A stretch of DNA of 64,000 bases, taken from the NCBI RefSeq assembly GCF_000325665.1, contig NC_019908.1, positions 744,001 to 808,000 of the forward strand. The letters are read 5' to 3'. The notes beneath the pieces were generated by a model, which was not told the origin of the DNA, made no database searches, and saw only the letters and a list, made by a program, of their open reading frames with translations. Position numbers and translations under genes: made by a program. Source of the DNA: Brachyspira pilosicoli P43/6/78. Its GTDB lineage: Bacteria > Spirochaetota > Brachyspiria > Brachyspirales > Brachyspiraceae. Positions 9,451-35,894 of the stretch are shown here, in pieces (the stretch's first letter is position 1; every line of letters starts with the position of its first letter).

Positions 9451-9498
9451 TTATTAACTCCTTATTAAAATTTTTAAAAATTTATTAAATAATTATTT

Positions 9499-10308: not shown

Positions 10309-10387
10309 TATATATCATTCCCCTTTATAAATAATTTAATTTTTTAAACAATTTAAATATTTTAGACAATAAAATAAATATTTTTTA

Positions 10388-11338: not shown

Positions 11339-11373
11339 AAAAAAATCCTTTATAAAATATAACTTTACAAAAA

Positions 11374-12054
11374 TTAATGGCTTGCTTTTTTTACTATAAA
11401 ATTACCAAGTGCCTGTATTAATCCAACAAGTATTACAAGAAGTATCACAGAAACATATATAATATCTAATTTATTTCTGTAGTATCCAGACTGTATAGCA
11501 TAAGTACCAAGCCCGCCAGCCCCAACAGCACCAGCCATAGCAGTAAGCCCTATTAAACTAATAGCAGTAATTGTAGTTCCTCTTGCTATAGGGGCAATAC
11601 TCTCTTTTAAATAAACTCTAAATATTATAGCTATAGGAGAAGAGCCCATAGATTGAGCAGCCTCTACTAAACCAGGATTTACCTCAGATAAAGCACTCTC
11701 CATCTGTCTAGCAAAAAAAGGAACTGTACCAAAAATTAAAGGTAATATAGCTCCCTTTACACCAATAGCAGTACCCATTATAAATCTAGTTAAAGGTACA
11801 AGCATAGCAAGAAGTATTATAAAAGGTATAGCTCTAAAAAAGTTAATAACCTTACTAAGCACTTCATATATTATAACATTTTGCATAATGCCGTATCTCT
11901 TAGTAACAATTAAAAGTATACCTAAAAATCCGCCCACAAAAAATGATATAACACCAGAATATAAAAGCATTATGAATGTTTGTATAATACTATCATAAAG
12001 TTTTGGTAAATCATTCATTACATTTGGTATTAATTTATTTAGAAACTCTAGCAT
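11374..12054 (-). CDS. metI: Methionine ABC transporter permease MetI
   Basis: A 226-aa inner-membrane permease with five to six helices and an EAA loop (EAAQSMGSSPIAIIFRVYLKES, about 145-165) that contacts the ATPase MetN. Its start codon lies inside the last codons of metN (20-bp overlap), which points to translational coupling. Length matches MetI. Confidence 0.93.
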   Translation of the reverse strand: MLEFLNKLIPNVMNDLPKLYDSIIQTFIMLLYSGVISFFVGGFLGILLIVTKRYGIMQNVIIYEVLSKVINFFRAIPFIILLAMLVPLTRFIMGTAIGVKGAILPLIFGTVPFFARQMESALSEVNPGLVEAAQSMGSSPIAIIFRVYLKESIAPIARGTTITAISLIGLTAMAGAVGAGGLGTYAIQSGYYRNKLDIIYVSVILLVILVGLIQALGNFIVKKASH

Positions 12055-13087
12055 CAGCTATTACCTCCACATCAACATTTTTTTCTTTAAGAAAATCTAT
12101 AGCTCTCTTTATTCCGTTATCTTCATTTTCATGCATTATAATGACAAGCCCTCCAAGTAAGCTCTCATCTATAAACTCAACATTTCCAAAAATAATATTA
12201 GCATCAACATTAAAAGCCCTAGATATATGAGAAATAAAAGCTTCTATTACTCCTCCCTTCTTATATCTAAGTCTTAATATACATTCATTTTCTTTTAATG
12301 ATGTAATAGCATTTTTCTCTTCTACCAAATCATATATTTTAGAAAGATTTGAAGTAGTGTCTATAAAATCTTGAGTTATTTTATTTTTTGGAGCAGAAAA
12401 TACATCAAAAATATTACCCTCTTCTATTAAATTACCAGCATTCATAACAGCAACCCTATGACATAATTCTTTAACAACATTCATCTCATGTGTTATTACA
12501 ACTATAGTAATTTTTAATTTCTCATTTAATTTTTTTAATAATTTAAGTATAGAGCCAGTAGTTTGAGGGTCTAATGCACTAGTAGCCTCATCGCAAAGAA
12601 GTATATTTGGTTCATTAGCCAAAGCCCTAGCAATAGCTACTCTCTGTTTCTGCCCGCCGCTTAATTGTGATGGATAAGCATAAGCCTTCTCTTTTATGTC
12701 CACAAGCTCAAGCAAAGACATAACTTTATCTTCAACTTCTTTTTTTGAAAGTCCCCTATATCTTAAAGGGTAAGCAACATTTTTAAATACATTTCTAGAG
12801 CCAAATAAATTAAACTGCTGAAATATCATTCCTATCTTTTTTCTTTTCTCTCTTAATTCTCTTTGAGATAAAGACATCATATCAACATTATCTATATAAA
12901 CCTTTCCAGAAGTAGGTCTTTCAAGTAAATTAATACATCTTACAAGAGTGGATTTTCCAGCACCAGAAAAACCTATTATTCCATATATCTCGCCGTCTTC
13001 TATTTTTATAGATACATTGTTTACAGCATTAAGCTGTTTATTATTTGCGGTTGTAAATACTTTGCTGACATTTTCTATTACTATCAT
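12035..13087 (-). CDS. metN: Methionine ABC transporter ATP-binding protein MetN
   Basis: ATPase of the methionine importer. The 350-aa protein has Walker A GFSGAGKST, Q-loop, signature LSGGQKQRVAIARAL, Walker B ILLCDEATSALD, switch His in ITHEM and the C-terminal NIL regulatory domain (about 260-350), which in known MetN proteins binds methionine and inhibits transport. First gene of a five-gene operon with a good promoter about 30 bases upstream. The leader is too short for a SAM riboswitch. Confidence 0.95.
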   Translation of the reverse strand: MIVIENVSKVFTTANNKQLNAVNNVSIKIEDGEIYGIIGFSGAGKSTLVRCINLLERPTSGKVYIDNVDMMSLSQRELREKRKKIGMIFQQFNLFGSRNVFKNVAYPLRYRGLSKKEVEDKVMSLLELVDIKEKAYAYPSQLSGGQKQRVAIARALANEPNILLCDEATSALDPQTTGSILKLLKKLNEKLKITIVVITHEMNVVKELCHRVAVMNAGNLIEEGNIFDVFSAPKNKITQDFIDTTSNLSKIYDLVEEKNAITSLKENECILRLRYKKGGVIEAFISHISRAFNVDANIIFGNVEFIDESLLGGLVIIMHENEDNGIKRAIDFLKEKNVDVEVIADARVSK

Positions 13088-13261: not shown

Positions 13262-16200
13262 TTAATATCCTCTCGCTGATTCATCTTTCCATTTTTTAAT
13301 AACTCTCTCAACCTCATCTCTATCATAAGAAGTATTTTTTACTATCTCATCATATTTCCAACCCTGCTTATACATATTAATAATAATATTCTCTTTCTTA
13401 TCATTAATTTTTGTAGCAGTAGTTTTACTTCTCTTAGTTAAACTCTTACCAGCATCATTAACATACTTTTCAGCATTATCTAATAGAGTCTCTAAATAAC
13501 GAACAAAGTATTCAGCTCTCTCAAGATTTTTAACTATATTGTTATCATAATCCTCATACTGCTTCTTCATGTATTTTAAGTTTTCTCTCTGATTTTGTAT
13601 CTCTTCTATAATAACATTAAGCTCTTCCAACTTGCTAAAGAACTTTTGTACCTTCTCATCATTCTTATCTATCTTAGCCATTTCTCTATCTAAAGCAAAC
13701 ATCTTGTCAGAGAACTCTCTTCTAGTATCTTCTATATCAAGCATAGCAGATTTAATAGTATCTATTCTTTGTAATATATCATCAGATTCATTATCAGCGA
13801 TATTTACTTTTTCTAATATAGTATTAGCCTGCTCTTCTTTGTCATTGATAATAGCAAGTTTATTTTCTATCTGAGAAGCTATATCTATAACAACTTTTAT
13901 ACCCTCTTGAGTATTTTCTATCATAGAGTTGCTTTCAGCTATTTGTATAAACTTGTTTTGTACCTCTTCAGACATCTCTACAAGCATATTTACTTTCTCT
14001 TGAGTATCTTTTAAGCTTTCTTTCTCTTTTCTGATACTCTCAGCATAATCTAATATAGTGTTATGCATATTCTTAAGCTCTTCAAACTCAGACATAGTTT
14101 TATTCATATCATAAACTGTATTTTTAGTATCATTTACTAAAACGTCCAATTTAGCTACATCATCTTTAATAAAGTTAGCCATCTCTTCTGCTTTATCAAA
14201 CACTTTTACAGTATTCATATATTTATCTATATCTTTGCCTATTTTTTCTATTTGTATTTTTAATGTTTCATACTCGCTGTTTATATCATAAGTTTTATCA
14301 TCAAGCATTTTATCTATAGAGTTCACTACATCATTTAATTTTTCAGTTAAAGAATCTGTTCTTGAATCTAAATCTTTAAGTATAACATTAGTTTTATCTT
14401 CATACTTCAAATTAATATCTTCTAATCTAGCATCTATTTCACTAGAATATTTAGCTATATCATCTTCTAAAGCAGATATAATATTTTTCATGCCAGCTAA
14501 TCTCTCATCATAAACATCTAAATTCGAAGACTGAACCTTTAACATCTCTTCTTTAGCATTTTGTACATACTCTTTAGCATCATTCATGAGTAATGATAAA
14601 GTCTGTTCCATATTAGAATTAAGTCTGTCTATATATTTATCATACTTATCATTAGCAGATTCTTCTATATTAGTAATATTCTCTTCAATAATGCTATTAG
14701 CCTCTTTAATTTTCTCATTAACAGCATCAGATATAGATTCTCTTAATTCCAACAATGAAATAGAAATATCTTCATACTGAGTTCTCAATTCATCAAATTG
14801 ATTATTCTTATCTTCTAGAAGCTCATTTATTCTATTAGCAACATTATCAATGATAGAATCAAACTCTACAACTTTGCTGTCTAAAGAAGTTTTAGCATTA
14901 GAAGAAAGCTCTTCAAGTCTAGATTTAAACTTATTACCTTCTTCTTCTATATCTTTAGAATACAACTCTATTTTATTTTGTAACTCTAATGCCTTCTCTT
15001 CAACTATAGCTTGAAGTTTTTCTATAGAAGGAGAGAATTCATTTTGTAAATTATTCATCTTCTCTTCTACATCTTTTAATTTTTCTTTATTATCTTCTAA
15101 AGATTTATTAAACTCTTCTTTAGCATCAATAGCCTTCTCTAAATCATCTAAAAGATTATCAACTGAAGAATGCATACTCTCTTTTGTTGATTCTAACTCG
15201 CTATAGAGTGAATTAATTTTATCCTGCCATTCTTTATAAGTATTTTCAAATAAAGCTACAATATCTTCTTTACTTCTCTCTTGTCTGTCAGAATAATACT
15301 TTTCTGTTTCAAGATACATATCTTTTAATTTTGTAAGCTCTTCTTCATGCATAGCTTTTACTTCTTCTATGCTTCTCTCACTCTCTGAATTAACAGCATT
15401 TCTTAGTTCGCTTAAAAGCTCATCTTGATAAGAAGACATATTATCTCTTAATTCTTTAGCAGTATCATCTAATTTACTATTCATCAATTTGAAAGTATCA
15501 TCTATTTTATCATTAATAGTTAACTCTACCTCATCTATAGCCTGTTTAACATCATTGAATCTCTCAAACTTCTTCATCTCATTATTAACGAACTCATTTA
15601 CAATTTTCATTATATGAGGAGTTAAATCATTAGTCTCTTTTAATATACTCTCATTAAATGAAGCAAGTAAATTATTAACAGCCTCTTTAGATTTGTCTAA
15701 ATGCTCATTATTTTCATTAATAATTTTCTCTTCCATAGAAGCTATATATTCTTCAACTTCTTTTATCTTTCTATTAAACTCTAATTCCTTCTCAGCTATT
15801 CTCTCAGCAGCATTATCTGAAGCCTCAATAACAGCAGATGTTAAACTATCTATTTTATTATTTATATTAACATCGCTAGTTTTTACCATCTCAATTAAAG
15901 CTTCTCTCTCTTTGCGTACATTTTCTATGTCTTGAGATATTAATTTTTGAGACTGACTTAATAATCTTATCTCATTTTCCTGCTCTTTCAAATTAACCTT
16001 AATAGTATCAACTATAGCATCTATCTCACTTTGAGCATTATCTATTCTCTCTATTATAGATTTTACTTTTTCATTTTCTATATCATCTATATGTTTTTTT
16101 ACTTTTTCAACATTATCAGTAATATCTAATAATATATGAGAAGCACTCTCTTTAATATTATCAACTTCAGCCTCTATAGAATCTCTATAAAACTCTTTAA

Positions 16201-19200
16201 TTTTTTCAGGCTCTGAATAAGCATCTTCAAAATGCTCTATTCTAGCTTCTATACGTTTTCTGAAAGCTTCATTAGATTCCTCAAACACCTTGATAATATC
16301 ATCTCTCAACTCTTCTGTCATATATTTGAAATCAGCTTCTATAGAATCACCCTTAAAGTTTTCAAGAACATCTAATATCTCTTTCTTCTGTTCATCTATT
16401 AAAGAAATAGCATCATCTTTGCTTATTAAATCTAGAGAAACTTTCTTGTTTAGCTCATCTATATTATCAATAATGCTCATCTTCTCATTATTTAGAACCT
16501 TCATAGCTTCATCTTGTTCTCTTATAAGCTCTAATATAGTTTTTCTAAAATTAATAAACTCATTAATTAATTTGTTTCTATCGCTTTCTATAGTGTTTAT
16601 AGCATCATCAGAGTATAAAGTACCAGTTTCATACTTTAATCTAATATCCTCTACTTCTAAAGCAATTCTCTCTCTCTCTTGTAATAGACTATTAGCTAAT
16701 TCCTCTATAAATGAAAGCTTATTAGCAAATTCATCTCTAAAGTTAGAAATATCATTTGCCATATTATCTCTATAGCTATTAATATTACCAACTACTTCTT
16801 CTTGAAGCATAGCAAAATTATTTTTCATATCAAGCTTGTATTGCTCTTCTATGTTTTCGAAATGACCTTCTTCTGATATCTTAGATTCTATATCATCTCT
16901 AAATGAAGCAAACTCTTCTCTCAAAGACATTTTCTCTTCAACAAATATATTGCTTATATCTTCTAAAGTTGGAATATCTTTAAGTATTGATTCTTTTAAA
17001 CTTGATAATTTATTTTCAAAATCAACTTGTTCTTTTGATAAAATCTCAGCTATAACATCTGTAGGAGAATAGTTTTCTTCTAAGTCTTTTCTAAACTCCT
17101 CTATAGTTTTATTAATATTAGCTATCTCTTCATCAAATAATTTTGAAACATAAGCTTTATCTGCAATATTTGAAGATAATTTCTCTTTTGTATCATCTAT
17201 AGAATTATCAATATTGCCTTTATACTCTGACATAAGCTCTTCAAACTTATCTAAAGAAACAGAATTATCTTTTAAACTTTCAAACTCTTTTCTTATATCA
17301 TTTAAAGCATAATATAAATTAGCTTTTTCTTTATCAATTATCTCATTAAAGTTCTTTAAATATTCATTTTTGAAGGCGTCTATTTTATCAGAGTTAGACA
17401 TATATTCTACTCTAATAGCAGATTTGAAATTATCTAATTCTTCTATTAATTTATTTTTCTCTTCTTCAAACATATCAGCGAAGTTTTTATTGTTAGAAGT
17501 TAATATCTCATTTTTAAATCCTTCAAACTCATTAACTATATTGTTCTTCTCTGAAACAAATAAATCGCTAATATCTTCCATGCTAGGTATTGATTCTATA
17601 ATCTCAGTTTTAAACTTAGAAAACTCTTCATTCATCTGAGCATCTTTTCTCTCTATAGTCTCATAAACATCTTTCTTAAGTTCATGTATAGAATCGAGCA
17701 ACTCTTTTTTATCTTTAGCAAGTTCATTAGAAAGCTCTAAAGAAGATATTAAATTATGTTCTACATGTCCGCTTCCATTTGACAAACTATTTTTCAAATT
17801 ATTTATCTTAGTATCAATAGCTTCTTCATAATCATTCAATACTTTATCTAATCTATTTACATATTGAGTGATATCATTATTCAAATAATGCTGACTGTCT
17901 TCTACATCTTTTATTCTATCTTCAAATGCTTCCATTTTGTTTTCAAATGTAGAAAGTTTATCATCAATAAATAATTTTGATTTATCATTAGCCTCTTCAA
18001 TAGAAACAATTTTGTTTTCTAAATCAGATTTCAAATTATTTATAGTATTTGATATGCTTTCTAATCTTTCATTAGAAGTAAGATTTTCTTTATCTAAGCT
18101 TTCAATTATAGAGTTTATACTATCAGCAAAGTTCTTTTCAACATTATCTATTTTTAAATTAAACTCTTCAAATGAATCTTTAAACTTAACCTCTAAATCA
18201 GATTTGAAACTATCTGCCTTTTCAGCTATAAAATCAGAATATAATTCTTTTATTTTATCTCCGTCACCCCAAGAATCTTCAAAGAACTCTATACGTTTCT
18301 CTAATCTGCTTGTAAAGTTCAAGTTATTATCTTCAATATCTGATAAACTATCTACTATAGAAGATATTTTAGTTTTATATTCTTCAAGAGTACTAAAGAT
18401 ATCATTATTATTAGATTTAAATAACTCGAAACTCTCTTCTATTTTTTTCAACTCTTCAGATAATTCATCTTTACTGATTGTATTATCTTCATAAGAAGAG
18501 ATTTTATTTACCAATTCTAATTCTTTGCTATTTATAAAATCATTAATCTTACTCTCTGAACTTTCAAGAGCTTTAGATATAGCATTATTTATATTTTCAT
18601 TTAAATCACTTAATGAATCTGTTATGATATTATCTAAACTTTCCTTACTCTTCTCTATACTATCCATCTGCTCTTTTAATTTCGCATCTATCTTAGAAGA
18701 ATAATCATTTAAATATACATCAATATATCCTCTATTGGCATCTAATTTAGCTTTTTCTATTTCTAATTTCAAATTATTACAAAGCTCTTCTAATGATTTA
18801 GAATTATTCTCATAAGCTGTATTTAATAATTTTGCATAGCTTTCATAATTAGAAATAATATTTTTACCAACATCATCTATATCTTTCATTATAGAAGATG
18901 ATTCTTCCAATCTATAGCTTTCTATATTTTTTAGCTCATCTTCATATTTATCAATAGCATCAGTGATAATATTATTAAATCTATTAATATCAGAAGTTAA
19001 TTTACTTTCTAAATCACTAACCTTATCATTAATAGAGTCTATTCTAGATTCTAATGATTCGTTTAATTCATTTTCTCTATCTTCTATTTTCTCTCTAACA
19101 GCTTTTACTATATCATCTACAATAGATTCCTTTTTATCATTTGTACTATCTATAAATGATTCTATATTATTTTTTGCTTCTTTTAATTGTTCAAGCAAAT

Positions 19201-22200
19201 TATACAAGCTGTCATCTTTCCAAATAGATATGCCGTTTTCAACTTCATCAATTTGTTCTTTTAAATTTGATATTATCTCATTTTTCAAATTGTTTACTTC
19301 TGGTGTAATAGCATCTTCATAAAGCTTTAATATTTTACTTGGGTCTGATAAATTATCTTCAAAATAAGCAACTCTATTATTAATATTATCTCTAAACTCA
19401 TCATTGCTAGAATTTAATTCATCATATAAAGAATAAAGCTTCTCTTTCTCTTCATCAAAATATTCTTTAGAAACACTATTATCTTCTAAAGTATCTATTT
19501 TATATTCTAATGAATACTTAAACTCAGATATCTCTTCAAATAATCTATCAACATCAATTCTTAAATTACCATCAACACCTTCTAAATTATTTTTTAAGAA
19601 ATAAACTTCATTTTCTAACTCATCAAGCTTATTGAAATCTTCTTTTAATGAATTAAATGTATCTTCTAATTTTATTCTCTCCTCTTCTAACTCATTTAAA
19701 GTATCATTATTTTTCAAAGCTTCTAATTCAAATTTAAAATTATCTATTTTATCTAATATAGTATTTTTTTCATCTTCCATAGTATTTTTTATATTAGAAA
19801 TCATACTCTCAGAATCTGATACTCTATTAAATATCTCTTTAGTAAACATATCAAATGATTCTTCAAATTGACTTTTTAATTCCTCAAAAATACTTGGAAT
19901 ATCTGATTTTTTAGCTTCTAAAATAGTATCTTTGAAATTAGCAAACTCTTCTCTTAATGCTTCAACATGCTCATCGCTTAGTACTGCACTTTCTATACTT
20001 AAGAACTTATCTTCAAAAGATTTATTTAAAGCTTCATATCCTTCTTTAAGTTCTGATATTTTTGAATCAATATACTCATAGAATAATTTTTCTTTATCAT
20101 CTAATTTAGATATCTGTTCAGCATAATCATTTAATTTGCTCTCTACAATAGATATTCTTTCATTTTGATTAAGAGCATTTTCATTTATTTTATTTATAGT
20201 ATCATTCAAATTAGAATTAAGCTCATCAAAACTAGCTTTTATTATATTATCCAATTCTTCTTTTGCTTTGTTTAATATATCAAGCTTATCTTCTAATTTA
20301 GAATCAATATTATTTAAATATTCTTGTAAATACTCATCAATATAATTCTTTTGAGACTCTGCATTCTCTTCTTTAAGATTTTCTAATTCATCTTTTAAAT
20401 TATTAGAATACTCTTCTAAATATTCATTAATATAATTTTTATCTGCTTCTGTATTTTCTTCTTTAAGAGAATCTAGTTCATTTTTCAAGTTATTAGAATA
20501 CTCTTCTAATAGAGATACTGAATTATTATAAACTTCTTCTAAATCTTTTACATAATTCTCATAGCTATTTTTAACTTCTTCACTAATTTTGTTTAGAGTA
20601 TCGGCACTTAACTCTGCACTATTAGCTTCTATAGTGTTTATCTCTGCCTTATAATTATTAACAGCTTCGTTTAAACTATTATAAAAGTTCTCTAAATCTC
20701 TGCTTACCTCATTGCTTATCTTATCATCAAATACTGACAATTTATTTTCTATATCTTTAACTCTATCTTCTAATCTGTCATATATAACTTTTTCTTTTGA
20801 TTCTAACTCATTCATTATAGAAGATAATAGCTCTTCTTTTTTGCTGTCTGTATCTTTTATATAAGACTCAATACTATTTTTTGCCTCTTCCAACTCAGAC
20901 AATAATCTATTAATATCGCCTTCTTTGTAATTATCTACGCTTGATGACAAATTATCTACTTTAGCTCTTAACTCTTCTAAATAATTTTCAAACTCAAGCT
21001 CTCTTTCATATTTAATATTTTCTAACTCTTCTCTTAAGTCTGATGAATACAAGCTTCTTATTCTTGCACTGTCTGACCAAGTATCTTCAAAATACTCTAC
21101 TCTTCTCTCTAATCTGTCTCTAAACTCTTTATTGTCTTTCTCTAAATTATCAAATAAATCATTTAGTTTTGATAACTCTTCATTAAATAAATCTTTTACT
21201 TTGCTGTCATTACTTAATGAATTAATATTATTTTCTATACCAGATAACTTATCTTCTAAATCTTTTCTGTAATTTGAAATACTATTTTCTAACTCTAATG
21301 ATTTGTTAATAGCTTTATCAACATCTTCTTTGAAACTGCTTAATCTATTATCAAAATCATTTACATTTCCATTAACACTTTCAAAATTGTTATTCAATAC
21401 TTCAAAGTTAGATGATATTGTATCTAAATTAGCAGATACATTCTCATTATTCAATGATAATTCTTCAATGCTGCCATTTAATTTATCTATTTCTAAATGA
21501 ACATCATTATATTCTTTTTTAAGTTCATCTATTGATGCATTTATTGAAGATAATAATGAACCATCTAATTCTGATACGCTATCTCTCAATTCATTTAAAC
21601 TGCTTTCTAATTCATCAAACTTAGATAACTCTTCTCTTATACCATTGAAAGAATCTTCTAATGATAACTTATAATCTAATAACTCATTTAATCTTTCATC
21701 ATTATGAACATTCTCTACCTCTAAGCGAAGGGCATCTAATTCTTCTAATAAAAGATTCTTATCGCTTGATAACATATCTTTTATATAGTTTATATCGCTG
21801 TCTGTATCATTTAGTCTGTTTAATAACTCGCTGCTAAACTCTTCAAATCCTCTTTCTAATTTCTCTCTCTCTTCTTCAAATAAACTATATAACTCATTAT
21901 TATCACTAACTGATGATACATCGCCTTTTAATGATAAATAATCATCTCTAAGACTTTCCAATTGAGAGATTAATTCATCTTTTTCTTTGCTCTGTAAATC
22001 TATTACTTCATCTCTATCTAAAATACTTTTCTTAACTAAATCTAAAGCTTCCTCAAAATCTACACTCAACTCTTTATATTGACTGCGTACTGAAGATATA
22101 TCATTATCTAAACTGTTTCTTATATTAGATATCTCTTCTTCTAATTTGCTATTAATACTATTTATGCGTGAATCCAATTCTTCTACATAATCTTTATTAA

Positions 22201-25200
22201 ACAACTTGCCAAAATCTTCTTCTAGCTTGCTTAATTTCTCTACATTTGCAAGAAGCTTATCATTAATATCTTTCTCTATTGATATTAATTTCTCTTCTGC
22301 TAAGCTATTTACTTTAGATAATGATTCTTCTATGCGACTATTAAGATTTTCAAAAGAACTGTTTAAGATATTATCTAATTCTTTTTTGCTCTCTTCTAAT
22401 ACTAATAACTTCTCTTCTAATCTGCTGTCTAAATTATTTGAATACTCTTCTAAATATTCATTAATATAATTTTTATCTGCTTCTGTATTTTCTTCTTTAA
22501 GAGAATCTAGCTCATCTTTTAAGTTATTAGAATATTCTTCTAATAGAGATACTGAATTATTATAAACTTCTTCTAAGTCTTTTACATAATTCTCATAGCT
22601 ATTTTTAATTTCTTCACTTATTCTATTTATAGCATCTGTACTTAACTCTGCACTATTAGCTTCTATAGTGTTTATCTCTGCCTTATAATTATTAACAGCT
22701 TCGTTTAAACTATTATAGAAGTTCTCTAAGTCTCTGCTTACTTCATTGCTCACCTTATTATCGAGCATTGACAATTTGTTTTCTATATCTTTAACTCTAT
22801 CTTCTAATCTGTCATATATAGCTTTTTCTTTTGATTCTAGCTCATTCATCATAGAAGACAAGAACTCTTCTTTTTTGATATCAGCATCTTTTATATAGCT
22901 ATCAATATTAGATTTAGACTCTTCCAATCTGTCGTGTATAGCTTTTTCTTTTAATTCTAACTCATTCATTATAGAAGATAATAGCTCTTCTTTTTTGCTG
23001 TCTGTATCTTTTATATAAGACTCAATACTATTTTTTGCTTGTTCTAACTCAGACAATAGTCTATTAATATCGCCTTCTTTGTAATTATCTACGCTTGATG
23101 ACAAATTATCTACTTTAGCTCTTAACTCTTCTAAATAATTTTCAAACTCAAGTTCTCTTTCATATTTAATATTTTCTAACTCTTCTCTTAACTCTGCTGA
23201 ATACAAGCTTCTTATTCTTGAACTATCAGACCAAGTATCTTCAAAATATTCTACTCTTCTCTCTAATCTGTCCCTAAACTCTTTATTATCTTTCTCTAAA
23301 TTATCAAATAAATCATTTAGTTTTGATAACTCTTCATTAAATAAATCTTTCACACTGCTATCATTACTTAATGAATTAATATTATTTGTGATACCAGATA
23401 ATTTATCTTCTAAATCTTTTCTGTAATTTGATATACTATTTTCTAACTCTAATGATTTATTAATAGCTTTATCAATATCTTCTTTGAAACTGCTTAATCT
23501 ATTATTAAAATCATTTACATTGCCATTAACACTTTCAAAATTGTTATTCAATACTTCAAAGTTAGATGATATTGTATCTAGATTAGCAGATATATTTTCA
23601 TTATTTGATGTTATATCTTCTATGCTGTTTGATAATCTATTTATATCTGAGTTTAAATTATTTAAATTAACATTGTATCCTTCTAATTGTCTGCCTACAT
23701 TATCTTTTAACTCTTCTAAAGAATTATTAAATGAACCTTCTAATTCTGATACACTGTCTCTTAATTCATTTAAACTGCTTTCTAATTCATCAAACTTAGA
23801 TAACTCTTCTCTTATACCATTGAAAGAATCTTCTAATGATAACTTATAATCTAATAACTCATTTAATCTTTCATCATTATGAACATTCTCTACCTCTAAG
23901 CGAAGGGCATCTAATTCTTCTAATAAAAGATTCTTGTCACTTGATAACATATCTTTTATATAGTTTATATCGCTGTCTGTATCATTTAGTCTATTTAATA
24001 ACTCGCTGCTAAACTCTTCAAATCCTCTTTCTAATTTCTCTCTCTCTTCTTCAAATAAACTATATAACTCATTATTATCACTAACTGATGATACATCGCC
24101 TTTTAATGATAAATAATCATCTCTAAGACTTTCCAATTGAGAGATTAATTCATCTTTCTCTTTGCTCTGTAAATCTATTACTTCATCTCTGTCTAAAATA
24201 CTTTTCTTAACTAAATCTAAAGCTTCCTCAAAATCTACACTCAACTCTTTATATTGACTGCGTACTGAGGATATATCATTATCTAAACTGTTTCTTATAT
24301 TAGATATCTCTTCTTCTAATTTACTATTAATACTATTTATGCGTGAATCCAATTCTTCTACATAATCTTTATTAAACAACTTGCCAAAATCTTCTTCTAG
24401 CTTGCTTAATTTATCTACATTTGCAAGAAGCTTATCATTAATATCTTTCTCTATTGATATTAATTTCTCTTCTGCCAAGCTATTTACCTTAGATAATGAT
24501 TCTTCTATGCGGCTATTAAGATTTTCAAAAGAACTGTTTAAGATATTATCTAATTCTTTTTTGCTCTCTTCTAATACTAATAACTTCTCTTCTAATCTGC
24601 TGTCTAAATTATTTGAATACTCTTCTAAATATTCATTAATATAATTTTTTTCATTATTTAAAAGCTCAGTTTCAGATTCATCTTTAATATTTTCTATCTC
24701 TTTTTTAACATTATCAAGATGTTCATCTAAAGAAGAAACAGCTGTGTTATAAGCATTATCAAGCATTATAGAATACTCTTCATAATCTGCTCTTATGCTA
24801 TCTGACAATGATTTTAAATCTGATATAATAGCTTCTTTTTCATTGCTTCTATGATGTTCTATATTTTTTATCTCTTCGTTATATTTATTAGAAGCATCAT
24901 TTATCATTTTATAAATATTCTCTAAACTGCTTCCTATATCATCATTAATTTTCTTATCTATAGCAGATAATTTATTATCAACATCTATTATCTTTTCATC
25001 TATACGAGAGTAAATTTCTCCCTCTTTAGCTTCCAATTTTTTTAGTATATCAGAAAGCAATTCTTCTTTCTTACTATCTGTATCTTTTATATAAGACTCA
25101 ATACTATTTTTAGCATCATTTAATTGAGATAAAAGTTCATTAATATTTTCATTTTTCCAATCTTCTATACCGCTAGAAATTTCATCTATCTGTGATTTTA

Positions 25201-27628
25201 ACTCATTAATATAAACATCAAATTTTTCATCAGAATATGCTCTAAGATTATTAATCTCTTCTTTTATCTCATTAGCATACATACTTCTAATTTTAGTAGG
25301 GTCAGACCAAGAATCTTCAAAATATTCAATACGTTTCTCTATTCTATTTTTAAACTCTTCATTTCCAGATGATAATTCTTTTAATATATTTTCCATTCTG
25401 TTTTCTATATTATCAGTCTTATCAATTGAATTAGAAAGATTTCCCTTTATATCATACAATTCTTTATTAAGAGTCTCTAAATCTTCTAATAAAGAACTAG
25501 AATCATTAGATATTTTCTCTTCTAAATTATCTTTGAAATCTATCAATTTACTAGATAAAGAAGCAACATCATCTTTTATAGTAGAATCTATTCCTTCCAT
25601 TCTATCCTTTAATGAAATAAAATCTTTTTCTAAATTTTTCACTTTTTCTATATCAGATTTCAAATCATCTAAAGAAGTTTCTAATTGAAGCTTATCTTCA
25701 ACTAAAGCATCTACTCTATTATCAGTTTTTATATCTTCTAAATCTTTTTCTATTAATTCTATTTTTTCTATTAAATGATTTCTCTCTTCAGATAAAACAT
25801 CTTTAATATAGCTTAAATCGCTTTCATTATCAGATATTCTCATAAGAAGATTTTTTGAAAACTCATCAAATATATTTTCTATTCTCTCTCTCTCTTCTTC
25901 CAATAAAGCAGGTATTTCTACTTCATTACTCTTTAATATTTGAGATTTAAAAATTTCAAACTCTTCTTTCATATCATCTAATTGAACATTCAAAGCCTCT
26001 CTTTCAGACTCTTGAATATCATTTAACTCTTCTCTAGACATTATAGAAGATTTTATTTCATCTATAGTTCTATCGAATTCAGTATTTTTAAATGATACAT
26101 CAGATTTTAATTCTTCTAATTCATTATAAATATCATCTTTAAGACTATCTACTAAATTAGAAATATCATTAATGCGTTCAATTTTTTCATTGTATTCATT
26201 AAACATAGATAACATATTTTCATTATTAGAAATCATATTATCTATCTCTTCTTTTAATTTACTATCAAGACCATCTTTATAACTATTAAAACCATCTCTC
26301 AATAATTCTAATGCTTTAGAAAGTTCTAATGTTTGATTACTTACAGCAGAATCAGTATACTCTTTAGCCTTTTCTAATAATTCAGTAACACCATTATAAA
26401 GAGTATTGAAAGAATCATTTAAAGTAGTGTTTATATTATTAACTTTTTCATCTATCTCTAAAGATTTAGTTTTCAAATAATCATCTATATAATTAGCTTC
26501 ATTTTCTAAATGTATTTTTTCAGCATCTTCTCTGTGTTTTTCTATATCATTTTTTAACTCATTAGCATAATCATCAAGAGAAGTTTTTTTATTGTTGTAT
26601 ATTTCTTCTAATATTTTAGTATATTTTTTATAGTCTTTTCTTATATTAGCACCAATATTTTCAACATCAGCTATTATATTAGCATTCTCTTCCAATCTTA
26701 CGCTTTCTATCTCTTTTATTTCATCATTATATTTCTCTATAGCAGCTTCTATTATTTCATTAAGTTCATCTAATTTATTTGAAGCTTCCTCTTCTACACT
26801 ATTAAATGCCTCATCACATTTAGCATTTAAAAACTCTTTTCTCTCTTCAATATAAGATGAAACATTTTGCATTTCAGTATTAACTGCTTTTTTCAAACTA
26901 TCAATATTATCTTTTAAATCATTAACATAAGAATCAGCAGTTTCTAATCTATCATCTATATTATTTTTTAGAGCATCTATATAATAATTAGAATCCTTCT
27001 CTTTAGAATCTATATTAGATTTAAACTCATTAACATAAGAATCAACTGTTTCTAATCTGTCATCTACAACATCTTTCAAAGCACTCAAATATTCATCACT
27101 ATTTTTCTCTATATTATCAATATTCTCTCTCAACTCATTAACATAAGAATCTGTTATATCTAGCTTATCATCTATATTAGATTTTAATTCATCAACATAT
27201 TTATTAATATTCTCTTTCTTTGTTTCTATATCTTCGATTATACTATTTACAGAAGAAACAACTTCATTAGATTTAGCATCAACATTTTCTTTTACACTAT
27301 TAACATAATCAGTTATATCTTTAGTTTTATTTTCTATACTATCTTCCATGTTCTTAGAAGCAAATGCAAGCTCTTCCAACTTAGAAGATAAAGTATCCAT
27401 TTTTATTCTATATTCATCACTAATAATATCAGAATGTTCTTTTAATTGCTCATATTCATTTCTCAAATTATTATAATAATTTTCTAAAGAACCTTTATAT
27501 TCCTTAGTCATAGAATCTAAATCTGATTTACTTTCACTAAACAAATCATCTATTTTATCATTTAATGATTTATACTTATCTTCAATATTTGACAACAAAT
27601 TACTTTCTTTTTCAATTTGCAACATCAT
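13262..27628 (-). CDS. Giant coiled-coil protein, 4788 aa, with C-terminal HTH-like domain
   Basis: A 4788-residue, acidic, Leu/Glu/Lys/Asp/Asn/Ser-rich protein that is almost wholly predicted coiled coil, with no signal peptide or membrane helix. The chain is broken at intervals by a conserved non-coil signature around FED (Phe at residues 770, 1462, 2180, 2756, 3116, 3800). A block of about 720 residues is tandemly duplicated (about 995-1720 and 1721-2400). The last ~45 residues look like a helix-turn-helix (IIINMYKQGWKYDEIVKNTS), as at the end of some spirochaete/Firmicute coiled-coil families. From memory, databases label similar very long proteins SpiroCoCo. ATG overlaps the upstream gene by 17 bases. 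A structural, filament or scaffold role is inferred, not shown. Confidence 0.9.
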   Translation of the reverse strand: MMLQIEKESNLLSNIEDKYKSLNDKIDDLFSESKSDLDSMTKEYKGSLENYYNNLRNEYEQLKEHSDIISDEYRIKMDTLSSKLEELAFASKNMEDSIENKTKDITDYVNSVKENVDAKSNEVVSSVNSIIEDIETKKENINKYVDELKSNIDDKLDITDSYVNELRENIDNIEKNSDEYLSALKDVVDDRLETVDSYVNEFKSNIDSKEKDSNYYIDALKNNIDDRLETADSYVNDLKDNIDSLKKAVNTEMQNVSSYIEERKEFLNAKCDEAFNSVEEEASNKLDELNEIIEAAIEKYNDEIKEIESVRLEENANIIADVENIGANIRKDYKKYTKILEEIYNNKKTSLDDYANELKNDIEKHREDAEKIHLENEANYIDDYLKTKSLEIDEKVNNINTTLNDSFNTLYNGVTELLEKAKEYTDSAVSNQTLELSKALELLRDGFNSYKDGLDSKLKEEIDNMISNNENMLSMFNEYNEKIERINDISNLVDSLKDDIYNELEELKSDVSFKNTEFDRTIDEIKSSIMSREELNDIQESEREALNVQLDDMKEEFEIFKSQILKSNEVEIPALLEEERERIENIFDEFSKNLLMRISDNESDLSYIKDVLSEERNHLIEKIELIEKDLEDIKTDNRVDALVEDKLQLETSLDDLKSDIEKVKNLEKDFISLKDRMEGIDSTIKDDVASLSSKLIDFKDNLEEKISNDSSSLLEDLETLNKELYDIKGNLSNSIDKTDNIENRMENILKELSSGNEEFKNRIEKRIEYFEDSWSDPTKIRSMYANEIKEEINNLRAYSDEKFDVYINELKSQIDEISSGIEDWKNENINELLSQLNDAKNSIESYIKDTDSKKEELLSDILKKLEAKEGEIYSRIDEKIIDVDNKLSAIDKKINDDIGSSLENIYKMINDASNKYNEEIKNIEHHRSNEKEAIISDLKSLSDSIRADYEEYSIMLDNAYNTAVSSLDEHLDNVKKEIENIKDESETELLNNEKNYINEYLEEYSNNLDSRLEEKLLVLEESKKELDNILNSSFENLNSRIEESLSKVNSLAEEKLISIEKDINDKLLANVDKLSKLEEDFGKLFNKDYVEELDSRINSINSKLEEEISNIRNSLDNDISSVRSQYKELSVDFEEALDLVKKSILDRDEVIDLQSKEKDELISQLESLRDDYLSLKGDVSSVSDNNELYSLFEEEREKLERGFEEFSSELLNRLNDTDSDINYIKDMLSSDKNLLLEELDALRLEVENVHNDERLNELLDYKLSLEDSFNGIREELSKFDELESSLNELRDSVSELEGSFNNSLEELKDNVGRQLEGYNVNLNNLNSDINRLSNSIEDITSNNENISANLDTISSNFEVLNNNFESVNGNVNDFNNRLSSFKEDIDKAINKSLELENSISNYRKDLEDKLSGITNNINSLSNDSSVKDLFNEELSKLNDLFDNLEKDNKEFRDRLERRVEYFEDTWSDSSRIRSLYSAELREELENIKYERELEFENYLEELRAKVDNLSSSVDNYKEGDINRLLSELEQAKNSIESYIKDTDSKKEELLSSIMNELELKEKAIHDRLEESKSNIDSYIKDADIKKEEFLSSMMNELESKEKAIYDRLEDRVKDIENKLSMLDNKVSNEVSRDLENFYNSLNEAVNNYKAEINTIEANSAELSTDAINRISEEIKNSYENYVKDLEEVYNNSVSLLEEYSNNLKDELDSLKEENTEADKNYINEYLEEYSNNLDSRLEEKLLVLEESKKELDNILNSSFENLNSRIEESLSKVNSLAEEKLISIEKDINDKLLANVEKLSKLEEDFGKLFNKDYVEELDSRINSINSKLEEEISNIRNSLDNDISSVRSQYKELSVDFEEALDLVKKSILDRDEVIDLQSKEKDELISQLESLRDDYLSLKGDVSSVSDNNELYSLFEEEREKLERGFEEFSSELLNRLNDTDSDINYIKDMLSSDKNLLLEELDALRLEVENVHNDERLNELLDYKLSLEDSFNGIREELSKFDELESSLNELRDSVSELDGSLLSSINASIDELKKEYNDVHLEIDKLNGSIEELSLNNENVSANLDTISSNFEVLNNNFESVNGNVNDFDNRLSSFKEDVDKAINKSLELENSISNYRKDLEDKLSGIENNINSLSNDSKVKDLFNEELSKLNDLFDNLEKDNKEFRDRLERRVEYFEDTWSDSARIRSLYSSDLREELENIKYERELEFENYLEELRAKVDNLSSSVDNYKEGDINRLLSELEEAKNSIESYIKDTDSKKEELLSSIMNELESKEKVIYDRLEDRVKDIENKLSVFDDKISNEVSRDLENFYNSLNEAVNNYKAEINTIEANSAELSADTLNKISEEVKNSYENYVKDLEEVYNNSVSLLEEYSNNLKNELDSLKEENTEADKNYINEYLEEYSNNLKDELENLKEENAESQKNYIDEYLQEYLNNIDSKLEDKLDILNKAKEELDNIIKASFDELNSNLNDTINKINENALNQNERISIVESKLNDYAEQISKLDDKEKLFYEYIDSKISELKEGYEALNKSFEDKFLSIESAVLSDEHVEALREEFANFKDTILEAKKSDIPSIFEELKSQFEESFDMFTKEIFNRVSDSESMISNIKNTMEDEKNTILDKIDNFKFELEALKNNDTLNELEEERIKLEDTFNSLKEDFNKLDELENEVYFLKNNLEGVDGNLRIDVDRLFEEISEFKYSLEYKIDTLEDNSVSKEYFDEEKEKLYSLYDELNSSNDEFRDNINNRVAYFEDNLSDPSKILKLYEDAITPEVNNLKNEIISNLKEQIDEVENGISIWKDDSLYNLLEQLKEAKNNIESFIDSTNDKKESIVDDIVKAVREKIEDRENELNESLESRIDSINDKVSDLESKLTSDINRFNNIITDAIDKYEDELKNIESYRLEESSSIMKDIDDVGKNIISNYESYAKLLNTAYENNSKSLEELCNNLKLEIEKAKLDANRGYIDVYLNDYSSKIDAKLKEQMDSIEKSKESLDNIITDSLSDLNENINNAISKALESSESKINDFINSKELELVNKISSYEDNTISKDELSEELKKIEESFELFKSNNNDIFSTLEEYKTKISSIVDSLSDIEDNNLNFTSRLEKRIEFFEDSWGDGDKIKELYSDFIAEKADSFKSDLEVKFKDSFEEFNLKIDNVEKNFADSINSIIESLDKENLTSNERLESISNTINNLKSDLENKIVSIEEANDKSKLFIDDKLSTFENKMEAFEDRIKDVEDSQHYLNNDITQYVNRLDKVLNDYEEAIDTKINNLKNSLSNGSGHVEHNLISSLELSNELAKDKKELLDSIHELKKDVYETIERKDAQMNEEFSKFKTEIIESIPSMEDISDLFVSEKNNIVNEFEGFKNEILTSNNKNFADMFEEEKNKLIEELDNFKSAIRVEYMSNSDKIDAFKNEYLKNFNEIIDKEKANLYYALNDIRKEFESLKDNSVSLDKFEELMSEYKGNIDNSIDDTKEKLSSNIADKAYVSKLFDEEIANINKTIEEFRKDLEENYSPTDVIAEILSKEQVDFENKLSSLKESILKDIPTLEDISNIFVEEKMSLREEFASFRDDIESKISEEGHFENIEEQYKLDMKNNFAMLQEEVVGNINSYRDNMANDISNFRDEFANKLSFIEELANSLLQERERIALEVEDIRLKYETGTLYSDDAINTIESDRNKLINEFINFRKTILELIREQDEAMKVLNNEKMSIIDNIDELNKKVSLDLISKDDAISLIDEQKKEILDVLENFKGDSIEADFKYMTEELRDDIIKVFEESNEAFRKRIEARIEHFEDAYSEPEKIKEFYRDSIEAEVDNIKESASHILLDITDNVEKVKKHIDDIENEKVKSIIERIDNAQSEIDAIVDTIKVNLKEQENEIRLLSQSQKLISQDIENVRKEREALIEMVKTSDVNINNKIDSLTSAVIEASDNAAERIAEKELEFNRKIKEVEEYIASMEEKIINENNEHLDKSKEAVNNLLASFNESILKETNDLTPHIMKIVNEFVNNEMKKFERFNDVKQAIDEVELTINDKIDDTFKLMNSKLDDTAKELRDNMSSYQDELLSELRNAVNSESERSIEEVKAMHEEELTKLKDMYLETEKYYSDRQERSKEDIVALFENTYKEWQDKINSLYSELESTKESMHSSVDNLLDDLEKAIDAKEEFNKSLEDNKEKLKDVEEKMNNLQNEFSPSIEKLQAIVEEKALELQNKIELYSKDIEEEGNKFKSRLEELSSNAKTSLDSKVVEFDSIIDNVANRINELLEDKNNQFDELRTQYEDISISLLELRESISDAVNEKIKEANSIIEENITNIEESANDKYDKYIDRLNSNMEQTLSLLMNDAKEYVQNAKEEMLKVQSSNLDVYDERLAGMKNIISALEDDIAKYSSEIDARLEDINLKYEDKTNVILKDLDSRTDSLTEKLNDVVNSIDKMLDDKTYDINSEYETLKIQIEKIGKDIDKYMNTVKVFDKAEEMANFIKDDVAKLDVLVNDTKNTVYDMNKTMSEFEELKNMHNTILDYAESIRKEKESLKDTQEKVNMLVEMSEEVQNKFIQIAESNSMIENTQEGIKVVIDIASQIENKLAIINDKEEQANTILEKVNIADNESDDILQRIDTIKSAMLDIEDTRREFSDKMFALDREMAKIDKNDEKVQKFFSKLEELNVIIEEIQNQRENLKYMKKQYEDYDNNIVKNLERAEYFVRYLETLLDNAEKYVNDAGKSLTKRSKTTATKINDKKENIIINMYKQGWKYDEIVKNTSYDRDEVERVIKKWKDESARGY
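20430..22475 (-). repeat. Intragenic tandem duplication, copy 2
   Basis: Second copy of a ~2.1-2.2 kb unit within the giant coiled-coil gene, encoding from NYINEYLEEYSNNLDSRLEE to the next NYINEYLEEYSNN. The segment about 22465-21570 matches 24640-23745 at DNA level with only scattered differences. It lacks a ~38-aa internal segment present in copy 1. Boundaries are approximate. Confidence 0.85.
22476..24650 (-). repeat. Intragenic tandem duplication, copy 1
   Basis: First copy of the duplicated unit. Offset to copy 2 is exactly 2175 bases (725 codons) in the most conserved part. It contains an additional local duplication around 22840-22990 (EESKSNIDSYIKDADIKKEE versus IESYIKDTDSKKEELLSS). 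Near-identity includes third codon positions, so the duplication is recent or kept uniform by gene conversion. Confidence 0.85.
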
Positions 27629-29993
27629 ATACTCTATTTATAGTGTTTTCAAAATCTTCTCTTCCATTTTCAACTTTATTTAAAATATCTTCTATATCAT
27701 CTCTAACTTTGTTTATACCTTCTCTTTTTTCATTTAAAAGAGCATCAAATGAATTAGTTGCTTCAAGTAATTCAGTATTTAGCATATTAACTATTTTGTT
27801 TTTATTATCTTCAGCAAACTCTTTATTTTCATTTAATGAATAATCTATTTTATCCTTAAACTCTTTTAAAGAATCTTCCATATTTGAAACTATATCATTA
27901 TGTCTCTTATCACTTTCTTCTACTTGATGAACAAGACTATTTATGCTGTCGCTTATAGATTTCATACTAGTCTCTTCATAATTATCAAGAACTTCTTTTA
28001 ACTGACTTTTCAAACTATCTAAATAAGAGTTACCATATTCATACAAATTATTTCTAATCTCTTCTATGTTAGACTCAGCATTTTTTATACCAGTGTCCAA
28101 TTTCTCATTAGCACTATCAACTAAATCTTTTATCTCTGAAGAAGTTTTATCTAAAAGCTCTATACGTTTTTCTATATTTTCTTTTAAATTAATCTCTGTA
28201 TCTTTTAATAAATCTTGTATCTTATTGCTATCATTATCATACTGTTCTTTTAATACAGATAATTTTTCTGTAACATTATTTAAATCAGTATATGTATTTT
28301 TTATATAATTATCTACGCCAATTTCAAAATCTGATTTGATATTATTGAAATTATCTTCAAGTTCTTGTATCTTTTTATTAGCCTGCTCTTCTAAATCTTT
28401 ATACAAATATTCTTTTTCTAAACTTAAAGCATCTAATATCTCTTCTTGTTTGTTAGTTAATATAGAAGATATCTCAGAAGTTTGATAATGTATTTCATTC
28501 ATCTTGTCTTTTAGAATATTAGTTTCTGTTTCAACATCTGCTCTAAGTTCATTAATCTCAGCTATAAGAGAGCTTCTAGCATTATCTATAGAATATTCCA
28601 TATCATCTTGAGTTCTAGCTAATATATCATTTTTAAGTCTTTCTATATCATTAACTATCTCATCAAATTTACTCTCTGCCCTAAGCATAGTCTCTTCACT
28701 CATACCATCTATAGACACTATTAAATCAGAAAGCTCTTTAGTTTTGTTTCTATAAAGAGTGATAACACCATCATTTTCATTTTCAAGTATATCTCTTATA
28801 TTATTAGAGAATGCTTCTACTTCAGTTATTAAACGATTGCTAATATCATTTTTAAGAGTAGTAAACTCTGTTTCCAATTGAACAGTTTTATCTTCATAAT
28901 CTTTAGTTATTAATTCTGCTTTATCTTTGATGTCATCTATAGTTTTCTCTAAAGAATGTGCTTTATCTTCAACAGACTCTAAGAACTCTTCTTTTTCATT
29001 TCCTATTTTCTCTAATTCTTCTTTTAATGTGTTGTATAAGAACTCTTTAGTTTTTTCCATTTCACCTTTAAACTCTTCAACACTAGACTCTGTTATAGAG
29101 TTAAGTCTCTCCTGTATAGTATCTCTTAAGTTTATAAGTTCAACTTCAAGTCCTTCTTTAGACTGGCTCAAACTAGCATAACGCTCTTCTATATCTTTTG
29201 ATTTACTGTTAATCTCTTCAGCAAATAAAGAGTATTTATTTATAAGTTCATCTCTTCCCTTCTCAAATAACTCTGCTAATTGTTCTATGTTATTGCGTGC
29301 AGTTCTTTCAGCAAGCTGAGTAAGCTGATTTGTAAATAATTCTTCTTTCTTTGCAACATGAAGTTTAAACTCTTCTGTTAATGCTGATATCTTATCTTTC
29401 TCTTGTTCAGCCATATCTGTATAATGAGCATCACGAGCGAGCAAATTAGTAGTAAGAGCATCAAATCTCTTATACAATTCAGATTCAAAATCATTTAATT
29501 TAGCATTATAAGAAGCTATTAAATTATCTTGTATAGAAGAAACATTTTTTTCTAATTCTATCATTTTTGTTTTCACATCAGATATTCTTTTATATGTTTT
29601 TTCTATAGTGTTACGTTCTTTTAATACAGTATCAACTTTATTAAGTATGTCTAAATATGCCTCTTCGAGTGAATCTACTTGTTCCTGATATTGAGATACA
29701 GCAGCTTTATAATCTTTATATGATTCTATTTTATTATTAAGCTTAGCCAAATCTTCTTCCATAGACTTGCTTATAAAACCAGCTTTTTTTACAGCAATCT
29801 CCAAATCTATGGCATTATCCCTAACTTCTGATATTTTCTCTTCTATAATACCTTCTAATGCCGCTTTTTCTTCAGCAAAAATATCATCATAATTTGAGTT
29901 ATTATTGTTTTTTTTTCTATCGATAATTTTAGAAATACCGACAACTATAATAGGAATAATTAGCATTAACGCGAAATTCAATATAGGGAACAT
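27612..29993 (-). CDS. Membrane-anchored coiled-coil protein upstream of the giant
   Basis: I start at the ATG at 29993 (793 aa) because GGAGA stands seven bases before it; an in-frame start 39 bases upstream lacks this. Residues about 3-22 form one transmembrane helix (NFALMLIIPIIVVGISKII) followed by Arg/Lys, i.e. a signal anchor with the bulk predicted cytoplasmic by the positive-inside rule. The rest is continuous coiled coil of the same composition as the giant protein. Its stop codon lies 17 bases inside the next gene, indicating coupled translation. It could tether the giant protein to the inner membrane (inference). No enzymatic motif is visible. Confidence 0.85.
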   Translation of the reverse strand: MFPILNFALMLIIPIIVVGISKIIDRKKNNNNSNYDDIFAEEKAALEGIIEEKISEVRDNAIDLEIAVKKAGFISKSMEEDLAKLNNKIESYKDYKAAVSQYQEQVDSLEEAYLDILNKVDTVLKERNTIEKTYKRISDVKTKMIELEKNVSSIQDNLIASYNAKLNDFESELYKRFDALTTNLLARDAHYTDMAEQEKDKISALTEEFKLHVAKKEELFTNQLTQLAERTARNNIEQLAELFEKGRDELINKYSLFAEEINSKSKDIEERYASLSQSKEGLEVELINLRDTIQERLNSITESSVEEFKGEMEKTKEFLYNTLKEELEKIGNEKEEFLESVEDKAHSLEKTIDDIKDKAELITKDYEDKTVQLETEFTTLKNDISNRLITEVEAFSNNIRDILENENDGVITLYRNKTKELSDLIVSIDGMSEETMLRAESKFDEIVNDIERLKNDILARTQDDMEYSIDNARSSLIAEINELRADVETETNILKDKMNEIHYQTSEISSILTNKQEEILDALSLEKEYLYKDLEEQANKKIQELEDNFNNIKSDFEIGVDNYIKNTYTDLNNVTEKLSVLKEQYDNDSNKIQDLLKDTEINLKENIEKRIELLDKTSSEIKDLVDSANEKLDTGIKNAESNIEEIRNNLYEYGNSYLDSLKSQLKEVLDNYEETSMKSISDSINSLVHQVEESDKRHNDIVSNMEDSLKEFKDKIDYSLNENKEFAEDNKNKIVNMLNTELLEATNSFDALLNEKREGINKVRDDIEDILNKVENGREDFENTINRVYDVAN

Positions 29994-30024
29994 AATTATC
30001 TCCAGTGGACAAAAAATATAGTAT

Positions 30025-30051
30025 ATTAACATAATAATATATTATGTTAAT
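30025..30051. promoter_or_regulatory. Perfect 12-bp inverted repeat over the coiled-coil operon promoter (operator candidate)
   Basis: ATTAACATAATA, 3-base spacer, TATTATGTTAAT. The palindrome covers the -10 region and predicted start site of the minus-strand promoter, a classic repressor position. Confidence 0.6.
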
Positions 30052-30062
30052 GTATAAGTCAA
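30034..30062 (-). promoter_or_regulatory. Promoter of the coiled-coil operon
   Basis: Minus strand TTGACT (30062-30057), 17-bp spacer, TATTAT (30039-30034). The ATG of the first gene follows about 40 bases downstream. Confidence 0.7.
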
Positions 30063-34627: not shown

Positions 34628-35307
<680 letters not shown>

Positions 35308-35417
35308 CTATAACCTTTATTCAAAAACTTTAATACTAATAATATATCATAAATAATTATAATTGACAAATATTTAAAAGAAAAATAAAATAATTAATTG
35401 TTAAAAAAATTAAATAT

Positions 35418-35894
35418 TTAGGAAATGTAAAAATTAAAACCAATATACATATGTGTGTCAAAATTAAATTTATTATATGATATAGAAAGGTTTCGAATCA
35501 TGTTGTCATAATAATTTTGCATTGTGCTTGAATATTGATAAAACACAGAGATTTTTCTATTTTTAGAAACAAAGATTTCTATTTCTTTTAAAGTTCTATA
35601 AAATGCTAGATAATAAACTTTGGTATTGATATTTGGAGAATATGCTAATATATTATACAATTCAAAAACAACATCTAGTAAAAATATTTTATTAAACCAT
35701 ACAGCCTTACTAGTCATAGGAAAGTCTAATATTTTTAAACTCTGAGAATAATCTACATAATCTATATCTTCTATGTTAACGATAGATTTATTAAATTTAA
35801 TATATTCCTTAGGATAGAAACTATATTCTAATGAATAGGTTTTGGATACAACAAACACCAAAAATATAATACAAACTCTTAATAACAATTTCAT
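35418..35894 (-). CDS. Exported protein, unknown
   Basis: 158 aa with a clear signal peptide (LLLRVCIIFLVFVVSKTYS, cleavage near 20). The mature part is rich in Tyr, Phe and Asn, alternates polar and hydrophobic residues, and ends in a beta-like stretch (MYIGFNFYIS). I do not recognise the family; it could be a small outer-membrane or periplasmic protein. Divergent from the next gene. Confidence 0.65.
   Translation of the reverse strand: MKLLLRVCIIFLVFVVSKTYSLEYSFYPKEYIKFNKSIVNIEDIDYVDYSQSLKILDFPMTSKAVWFNKIFLLDVVFELYNILAYSPNINTKVYYLAFYRTLKEIEIFVSKNRKISVFYQYSSTMQNYYDNMIRNLSISYNKFNFDTHMYIGFNFYIS

Follow-up and report, generated by a model that had tools for sequence, protein, structure and literature searches.

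A 64,000-nucleotide stretch of the Brachyspira pilosicoli P43/6/78 chromosome (NC_019908.1, positions 744,001 to 808,000; hereafter the window) carries on its minus strand a very long gene of the NCBIfam SpiroCoCo family. The gene is read in two open frames, of 793 and 4788 amino acids (aa), which appear to be one gene; the two-frame layout seems to be caused by a one-base frame difference in the P43/6/78 sequence. The product is proposed to be an inner-membrane cable that holds out a docking module for flagellar assembly at a distance from its anchor, and the probability of this reading is estimated at roughly 0.55. In this model, one N-terminal helix would tether a single cytoplasmic polypeptide to the inner membrane. 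The cable would be a near-straight α-helix, rising ~0.15 nm per residue and ending in a flexible linker and a three-helix helix-turn-helix (HTH) module. The HTH might dock a flagellar-assembly partner (FlhF, or the basal body or export apparatus) distant from SpiroCoCo's own membrane anchor, and would thereby help to arrange the periplasmic flagellar motors in their subterminal row. Tandem duplication of rod modules would alter the reach of the cable.

There is no settled explanation of how a spirochaete positions multiple flagellar motors at particular sites close to its two ends. Nearly all flagellate spirochaetes have SpiroCoCo, which in Brachyspira attains up to 9,113 aa. The link of its HTH to small flagellar proteins with a transmembrane (TM) helix and an HTH, including FipA, and the absence of the HTH from a flagella-less family would mark a previously unnamed coil as a specific and testable candidate factor in flagellar placement. 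A misleading two-gene reading, due to the frame break, is corrected at the same time.

The assignment to the SpiroCoCo family is firm. The following features carry it:
13262..29993, minus strand: SpiroCoCo-family gene interrupted by a frame change (27612-29993, then 13262-27628), from frames, NCBIfam and relatives.
29313..29969, minus strand: SpiroCoCo_N domain (NF047514), on the 5' frame; 145.6 bits against a cut-off of 75, E 1.6e-42.
13298..14284, minus strand: SpiroCoCo_C domain (NF047515), on the 3' frame and with the HTH at its end; 217.7 bits against a cut-off of 125, E 2.1e-64.

The two domains are on separate frames in the window and on one frame in relatives. SpiroCoCo was found almost throughout the spirochaetes in a survey of 295 genomes, SpiroCoCo_C being matched in 267 of the 269 outside a single family (f42, described below), and neither cut-off was exceeded in any of the 14 genomes of other phyla used as controls. 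Neither the name SpiroCoCo nor a description of the family was found in the literature searched, and a search for BB0512, TP0408 and LA3659, presumed locus names of family members, gave nothing relevant. Membership of the SMC/Rad50/ZorA group was rejected, since the matches were driven by the coil and stayed under the curated cut-offs; Pfam Apolipoprotein and Baculo_PEP_C passed their cut-offs solely via the repeated amphipathic helix and were also rejected. One other genome (G026:C28:21315-26213) has a tandem pair of SpiroCoCo genes, with frames of 2786 and 1304 aa.

The N-terminal half of the model rests on an anchor and a rod:
29913..29993, minus strand: N-terminal membrane anchor, residues 1-27, followed by the basic flank KIIDRKK (hydropathy; AlphaFold2 (AF2)).
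14285..29312, minus strand: long near-straight α-helical rod with a hydrophobic period of 3.64 (periodicity analysis).
22703..24859, minus strand: tandem rod module copy 1, ~720 aa, residues 924-1642 of the 4788-aa frame (ungapped diagonal scan).
20549..22684, minus strand: tandem rod module copy 2, residues 1649-2360 of the 4788-aa frame (ungapped diagonal scan).

The N-terminal membrane helix proposed in the initial annotation is borne out: residues 1-27 of the near-identical protein of genome G016 have a Kyte-Doolittle value of 2.58, and an AF2 model of the first 240 residues places a helix at 3-29, with low confidence there. Because the basic flank follows the membrane helix, the remainder is predicted to be cytoplasmic. 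A single N-terminal TM helix with a basic cytoplasmic flank is likewise seen in Brachyspira, in Borrelia-like G175 and in G063 (1,139,633 bp), which we take to be Treponema pallidum.

The rod is confirmed as helical and poor in proline and glycine (1.3-2%); it has no cysteine and is very acidic, with a net charge of -555 in the 4788-aa frame. It is not the ordinary heptad coiled coil that had been assumed. The periodicity power is 8-10 at 3.64 and 3-4 at the classical heptad period of 3.50, so that the 3.64 peak is 2-3 times higher; the shuffled maximum is 1.2-2.0. The period was 3.63-3.64 in all 14 proteins tested, including those of G063 and G175. A period of 3.64 suggests an almost straight helix. 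AF2 confidence in the rod is low (mean predicted local distance difference test (pLDDT) score of 55), and both helix continuity and oligomeric state are inferred. If the helix is continuous, the earlier length estimate is sound and gives ~0.8 μm for P43/6/78; at 0.15 nm per residue, an intact B. pilosicoli cable would measure ~0.83 μm, and the cables of the genus ~0.6-1.4 μm. The rod modules, ~620-730 aa each, are specific to Brachyspira, and in some of them an R(I/V)E(Y/F)FED anchor recurs every 680-725 aa. Between copies 1 and 2 in the window, identity reaches 100% in segments of 120 aa. The protein of B. pilosicoli PC5538III-hc (G011) is 699 aa shorter than that of G016, which is one module's worth; a collapsed repeat is possible, since the G011 assembly is a draft.

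The docking function is suggested by the C-terminus:
13274..13402, minus strand: C-terminal HTH module, residues 4743-4785 (AF2, profile comparisons and alignments).

In the AF2 model of this region, a disordered linker is followed by three helices with pLDDT values of 72-87. Among the C-termini of 14 SpiroCoCos, Pfam DUF6115 was matched in 13 and DUF2802 in 10, with better E-values than generic HTHs; the gathering score of DUF6115 (PF19610), 27, is reached in many other SpiroCoCos, and the best DUF2802 match of the family is 29 bits against a gathering score of 33.5. When the genomes were scanned with the DUF6115 model, SpiroCoCo C-termini were matched directly, at up to 45.7 bits. The same scan yielded small open reading frames (ORFs) of ~170-290 aa with a TM helix, a coil and an HTH, which in Borrelia lie near 280-286 kb, in the flhF region. 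These ORFs probably correspond to the "TM + HTH" protein that is named beside FlgV in the flagellar superoperon (PMC11607428). In profile comparisons, the SpiroCoCo HTH matched the small TM + HTH proteins with a probability of 98.0 (E 1.7e-13); the Brachyspira HTH matched the remaining SpiroCoCos at 95.8 and the small proteins at 93.3. By these profiles, the SpiroCoCo HTH is homologous throughout the phylum to the flagellar TM + HTH proteins (DUF6115/DUF2802, FipA/SwrB type), a relationship that is new here. In the deep spirochaete lineages, all SpiroCoCos end in a recognisable, sometimes divergent, version of the HTH.

The pattern of conserved residues is also shared. In FipA (DUF2802), G110, E126 and L129 are invariant, and the G110A and L129A substitutions abolish binding to FlhF (PMC11620751). 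In the SpiroCoCo alignment (A6), glycine at position 0 and glutamate at +16 are present throughout and leucine at +19 in 13 of 15 sequences, that is, at the identical spacing. In the window, Gly4756 and Glu4772 match the conserved FipA positions. The initial annotation had stated that no motif proves a role. This holds as far as proof is concerned, but the informative C-terminal HTH was missed.

Further evidence comes from family f42, in which flagella seem to be missing. SpiroCoCo_C was below E 1e-5 in none of its 26 genomes, none of the 26 is listed with FliF, and flagellin was absent from all 11 tested. The member G222 (2,227,296 bp) is presumably Parasphaerochaeta coccoides, and f42 is therefore probably the Sphaerochaetaceae. 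The gene order Der GTPase, HAD hydrolase, SpiroCoCo of f42 resembles that of Borrelia, where one extra gene lies between the first two; the Der and HAD names in this comparison were given from recognised sequence motifs. The syntenic f42 orthologues are short (376 aa in G222, 638 aa in G267) and keep the TM helix and the N-domain. They have no HTH; an acidic tail such as GDEEEILLDDDQE takes its place. Sphaerochaeta is known to be non-spiral and flagella-less (PMC6052044). Two genomes negative for FliF and positive for SpiroCoCo (G067 and G257) were rejected as counter-examples, since flagellin is present in both; the FliF gap is thus probably an assembly gap. The role in periplasmic-flagella positioning that the initial annotation had raised gains indirect support from the homology of the C-terminal module and from its loss in this flagella-less family.

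Two side observations concern f42. Short orthologues (L104, L107, L108, L110, L113, L127 and L128) have in common an acidic motif (EEEI.LDD-like) at the C-terminus, where other members have the HTH; it may be a docking tail of another kind. Full-length FlhF-like proteins of 397-416 aa are kept in f42 genomes (G202:C74:11234-12055 and G222:C1:744895-745698), at 151 and 139 bits, under the FlhF cut-off of 174.

Several points weigh against a flagellar docking module. The match of the window HTH to DUF6115 is just E 0.017 and 16.0 bits, below the gathering score, and DUF2802 gave no match for it. Residue 4775 is arginine where FipA needs leucine, so that FlhF binding in Brachyspira is less certain; the Brachyspira HTH module is, by sequence, a diverged one. 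In the window, the SpiroCoCo gene is not within a flagellar operon. The loss of the HTH in f42 is a single evolutionary event that coincides with the loss of spiral shape, and the correlation is therefore with flagella and shape together. Finally, structure comparison of the HTH with PDB gave only weak matches, to resolvase and LuxR-type domains. Since the rod model is of low confidence, the fold matches are confined to generic HTHs; a PDB sequence search with the HTH profile likewise found generic HTHs and designed proteins, and one with the N-domain found none. DNA binding is thus conceivable.

This leads to the alternative that the HTH binds DNA and that, in these long, thin cells, the cable connects the inner membrane or pole with the chromosome. 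In addition to the fold, basic residues are more frequent in the recognition-helix region of Brachyspira than in that of other SpiroCoCos. However, the third helix is acidic and hydrophobic in most members (GEVELILEL), and the nearest profiles are DUF6115 and DUF2802, not DNA-binding families. Moreover, the module is missing exactly where flagella are missing, though chromosome organisation is needed in those cells as well. Such a membrane-to-nucleoid tether, which would match the role in chromosome organisation raised by the initial annotation, is considered rather unlikely but conceivable.

Unlikely, too, is a cytoplasmic cable with a structural role in cell shape or length that is not specifically flagellar, in which the rod does the work and the HTH is only a terminal contact. 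The extreme length of the rod, its growth by modules in Brachyspira, and the strong shortening of the f42 orthologues, which keep the N-domain in probably non-spiral cells, would be expected from it. The C-terminal HTH, however, is a family-wide feature, whereas rod length varies from ~690 to more than 9,000 aa.

An extension of the docking model, which we regard as quite doubtful, is that the cable is length-tunable and places the flagellar motors: the FipA-like HTH would hold FlhF or nascent basal bodies, and the number of modules would set the reach and hence the spacing or number of motors. With the same doubt, each module in this extension would be ~700 aa and span ~0.1 μm. Brachyspira flagella insert in line and subterminally (PMC4603578). 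There are 4-6 flagella per end in B. pilosicoli and 7-14 in B. hyodysenteriae (PMC2897892), and 14-16 per cell in B. suanatina (PMC4603578) and 24-28 in B. intermedia. B. pilosicoli has the shorter SpiroCoCo forms, and the forms of B. suanatina and B. intermedia are longer. The line of insertion and these counts make it tempting to connect cable length with motor layout, but do not prove such a connection.

The minus-strand frames are real, as is their overlap:
27612..27628, minus strand: 17-base frame overlap, where the frame breaks; uninterrupted in relatives.

The frames run over 13262-27628 and 27612-30032. In 20 shuffles of the window, the longest stop-free frame was 147 aa; the long frames are therefore not due to chance. 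The initial annotation had taken them for a two-gene operon. In all other Brachyspira genomes with an unbroken contig here, other B. pilosicoli included, both halves form one stop-free frame of 3,898-9,113 aa, counted from the conserved methionine and with contiguous pieces joined. The lengths are 3,898 aa (G001), 4,873 (G011), 5,572 (G016), 7,077-7,127 (G004-G006, of which G006 is B. hampsonii), 7,659 (B. murdochii, G010), 7,756 (B. innocens, G008), 7,832 (G007), 7,860 (B. suanatina, G025) and 9,113 aa (G014); the copy of G009, which we take to be B. intermedia, has at least 7,877 aa. The window differs from four relatives (96-98% protein identity) by one base exactly at the overlap. Over ~43 kb of synteny with G016, this is the one indel within a listed ORF that clearly changes the frame without compensation, small compensated gaps close to ORF ends being disregarded by eye. 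One frame in the relatives and a one-base difference exactly at the overlap point to a single gene. The anchor-plus-rope picture thus survives in that both parts exist, though as one polypeptide and not as a pair of genes.

An error of 454 sequencing is the likeliest origin of the frame break, despite the shortness of the run at the overlap; a genuine mutation is conceivable. The P43/6/78 assembly was built from 454 reads at ~38-fold, with Sanger reads for gap closure (PMC3587939), and another housekeeping gene, cmk, is frame-broken ~7 kb away. It occupies 34628-35420 (minus strand) in two frames broken at a T8 run, and the listed ORF (34628-35017) covers the C-terminal half only; in G016 it is a single 226-aa frame. 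The cmk break is likely to be a second 454 error in the window. Deliberate production of two proteins in P43/6/78, by a true two-gene operon or a programmed frameshift, is very improbable: the deposited sequence does offer two overlapping frames and an ATG, but there is no clear Shine-Dalgarno sequence ahead of 27628, the overlap showed no slippery motif, and the relatives and the 454-based assembly argue against it.

Frame breaks are present in further deposited SpiroCoCo copies (G009, G013 and G019). The small flagellar-type TM + HTH gene of P43/6/78 (L159, G000:C1:491500-495000, minus strand 1408-2231) is also frame-broken, into 189 and 90 aa; that of B. pilosicoli T010 is unbroken, with 277 aa. 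FlhF-like matches at G000:C1:862070-863734 are spread over at least two frames (606 and 64 aa), G014 having a single 681-aa frame, and the FlhF-like gene of P43/6/78 possibly has another frame break.

The start codon of the first frame is likely to be at 29993, which gives the 793 aa described before. GGAG lies ~5-8 nt upstream, the methionine is conserved in Brachyspira relatives, and the alternative longer start at 30032 adjoins a promoter-like hexamer; for these reasons 29993 was preferred.
30034..30062, minus strand: promoter-like site TTGACT-17-TATTAT upstream of the gene; 10 of 12 positions match, and chance sites are many in AT-rich DNA.

Neighbours in the window encode ABC transporters, lactate/malate dehydrogenase, NlpA lipoproteins, an S1-domain protein and cmk. 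Function could not be read from operon or neighbourhood, as the adjoining genes give no lead. At 8635-13087 (minus strand), a MetNI-type ABC transporter with a NIL domain, its permease and two NlpA lipoprotein genes are found, with the lactate/malate dehydrogenase gene between. The SpiroCoCo gene region had no match in phage records. The complete P43/6/78 genome is CP002873, 2,555,556 bp (PMC8116685).

When known systems are compared, SMC/Rad50, ZorA and apolipoprotein-type helices are like SpiroCoCo in their long amphipathic or coiled helix. Unlike SMC/Rad50 and ZorA, SpiroCoCo has one TM helix and neither an ATPase head nor a motor domain, and the matches are confined to the coil. The other members of the SpiroCoCo family (NF047514/NF047515; LA_3659 family NF047516) have the same N- and C-domains, TM helix, helical rod and C-terminal HTH; they are mostly ~700-3,400 aa, whereas those of Brachyspira are far longer, with specific tandem modules and a diverged HTH. 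The TM + HTH protein (DUF6115; SwrB-type) has in common with SpiroCoCo the layout of TM helix, coil and C-terminal GEVELIL HTH, but is a separate gene product of ~170-290 aa; SpiroCoCo is encoded at another locus and is 4-50 times longer. B. subtilis SwrB presumably carries DUF6115. FipA, the FlhF-recruiting polar factor of gammaproteobacteria, of which its authors report none in spirochaetes (PMC11620751), has 163 aa, and its leucine is replaced in Brachyspira; FlhF binding by SpiroCoCo would be a prediction from the motif. FipA has a single TM helix, a cytoplasmic coil, and glycine, glutamate and leucine at the same spacing as in SpiroCoCo.

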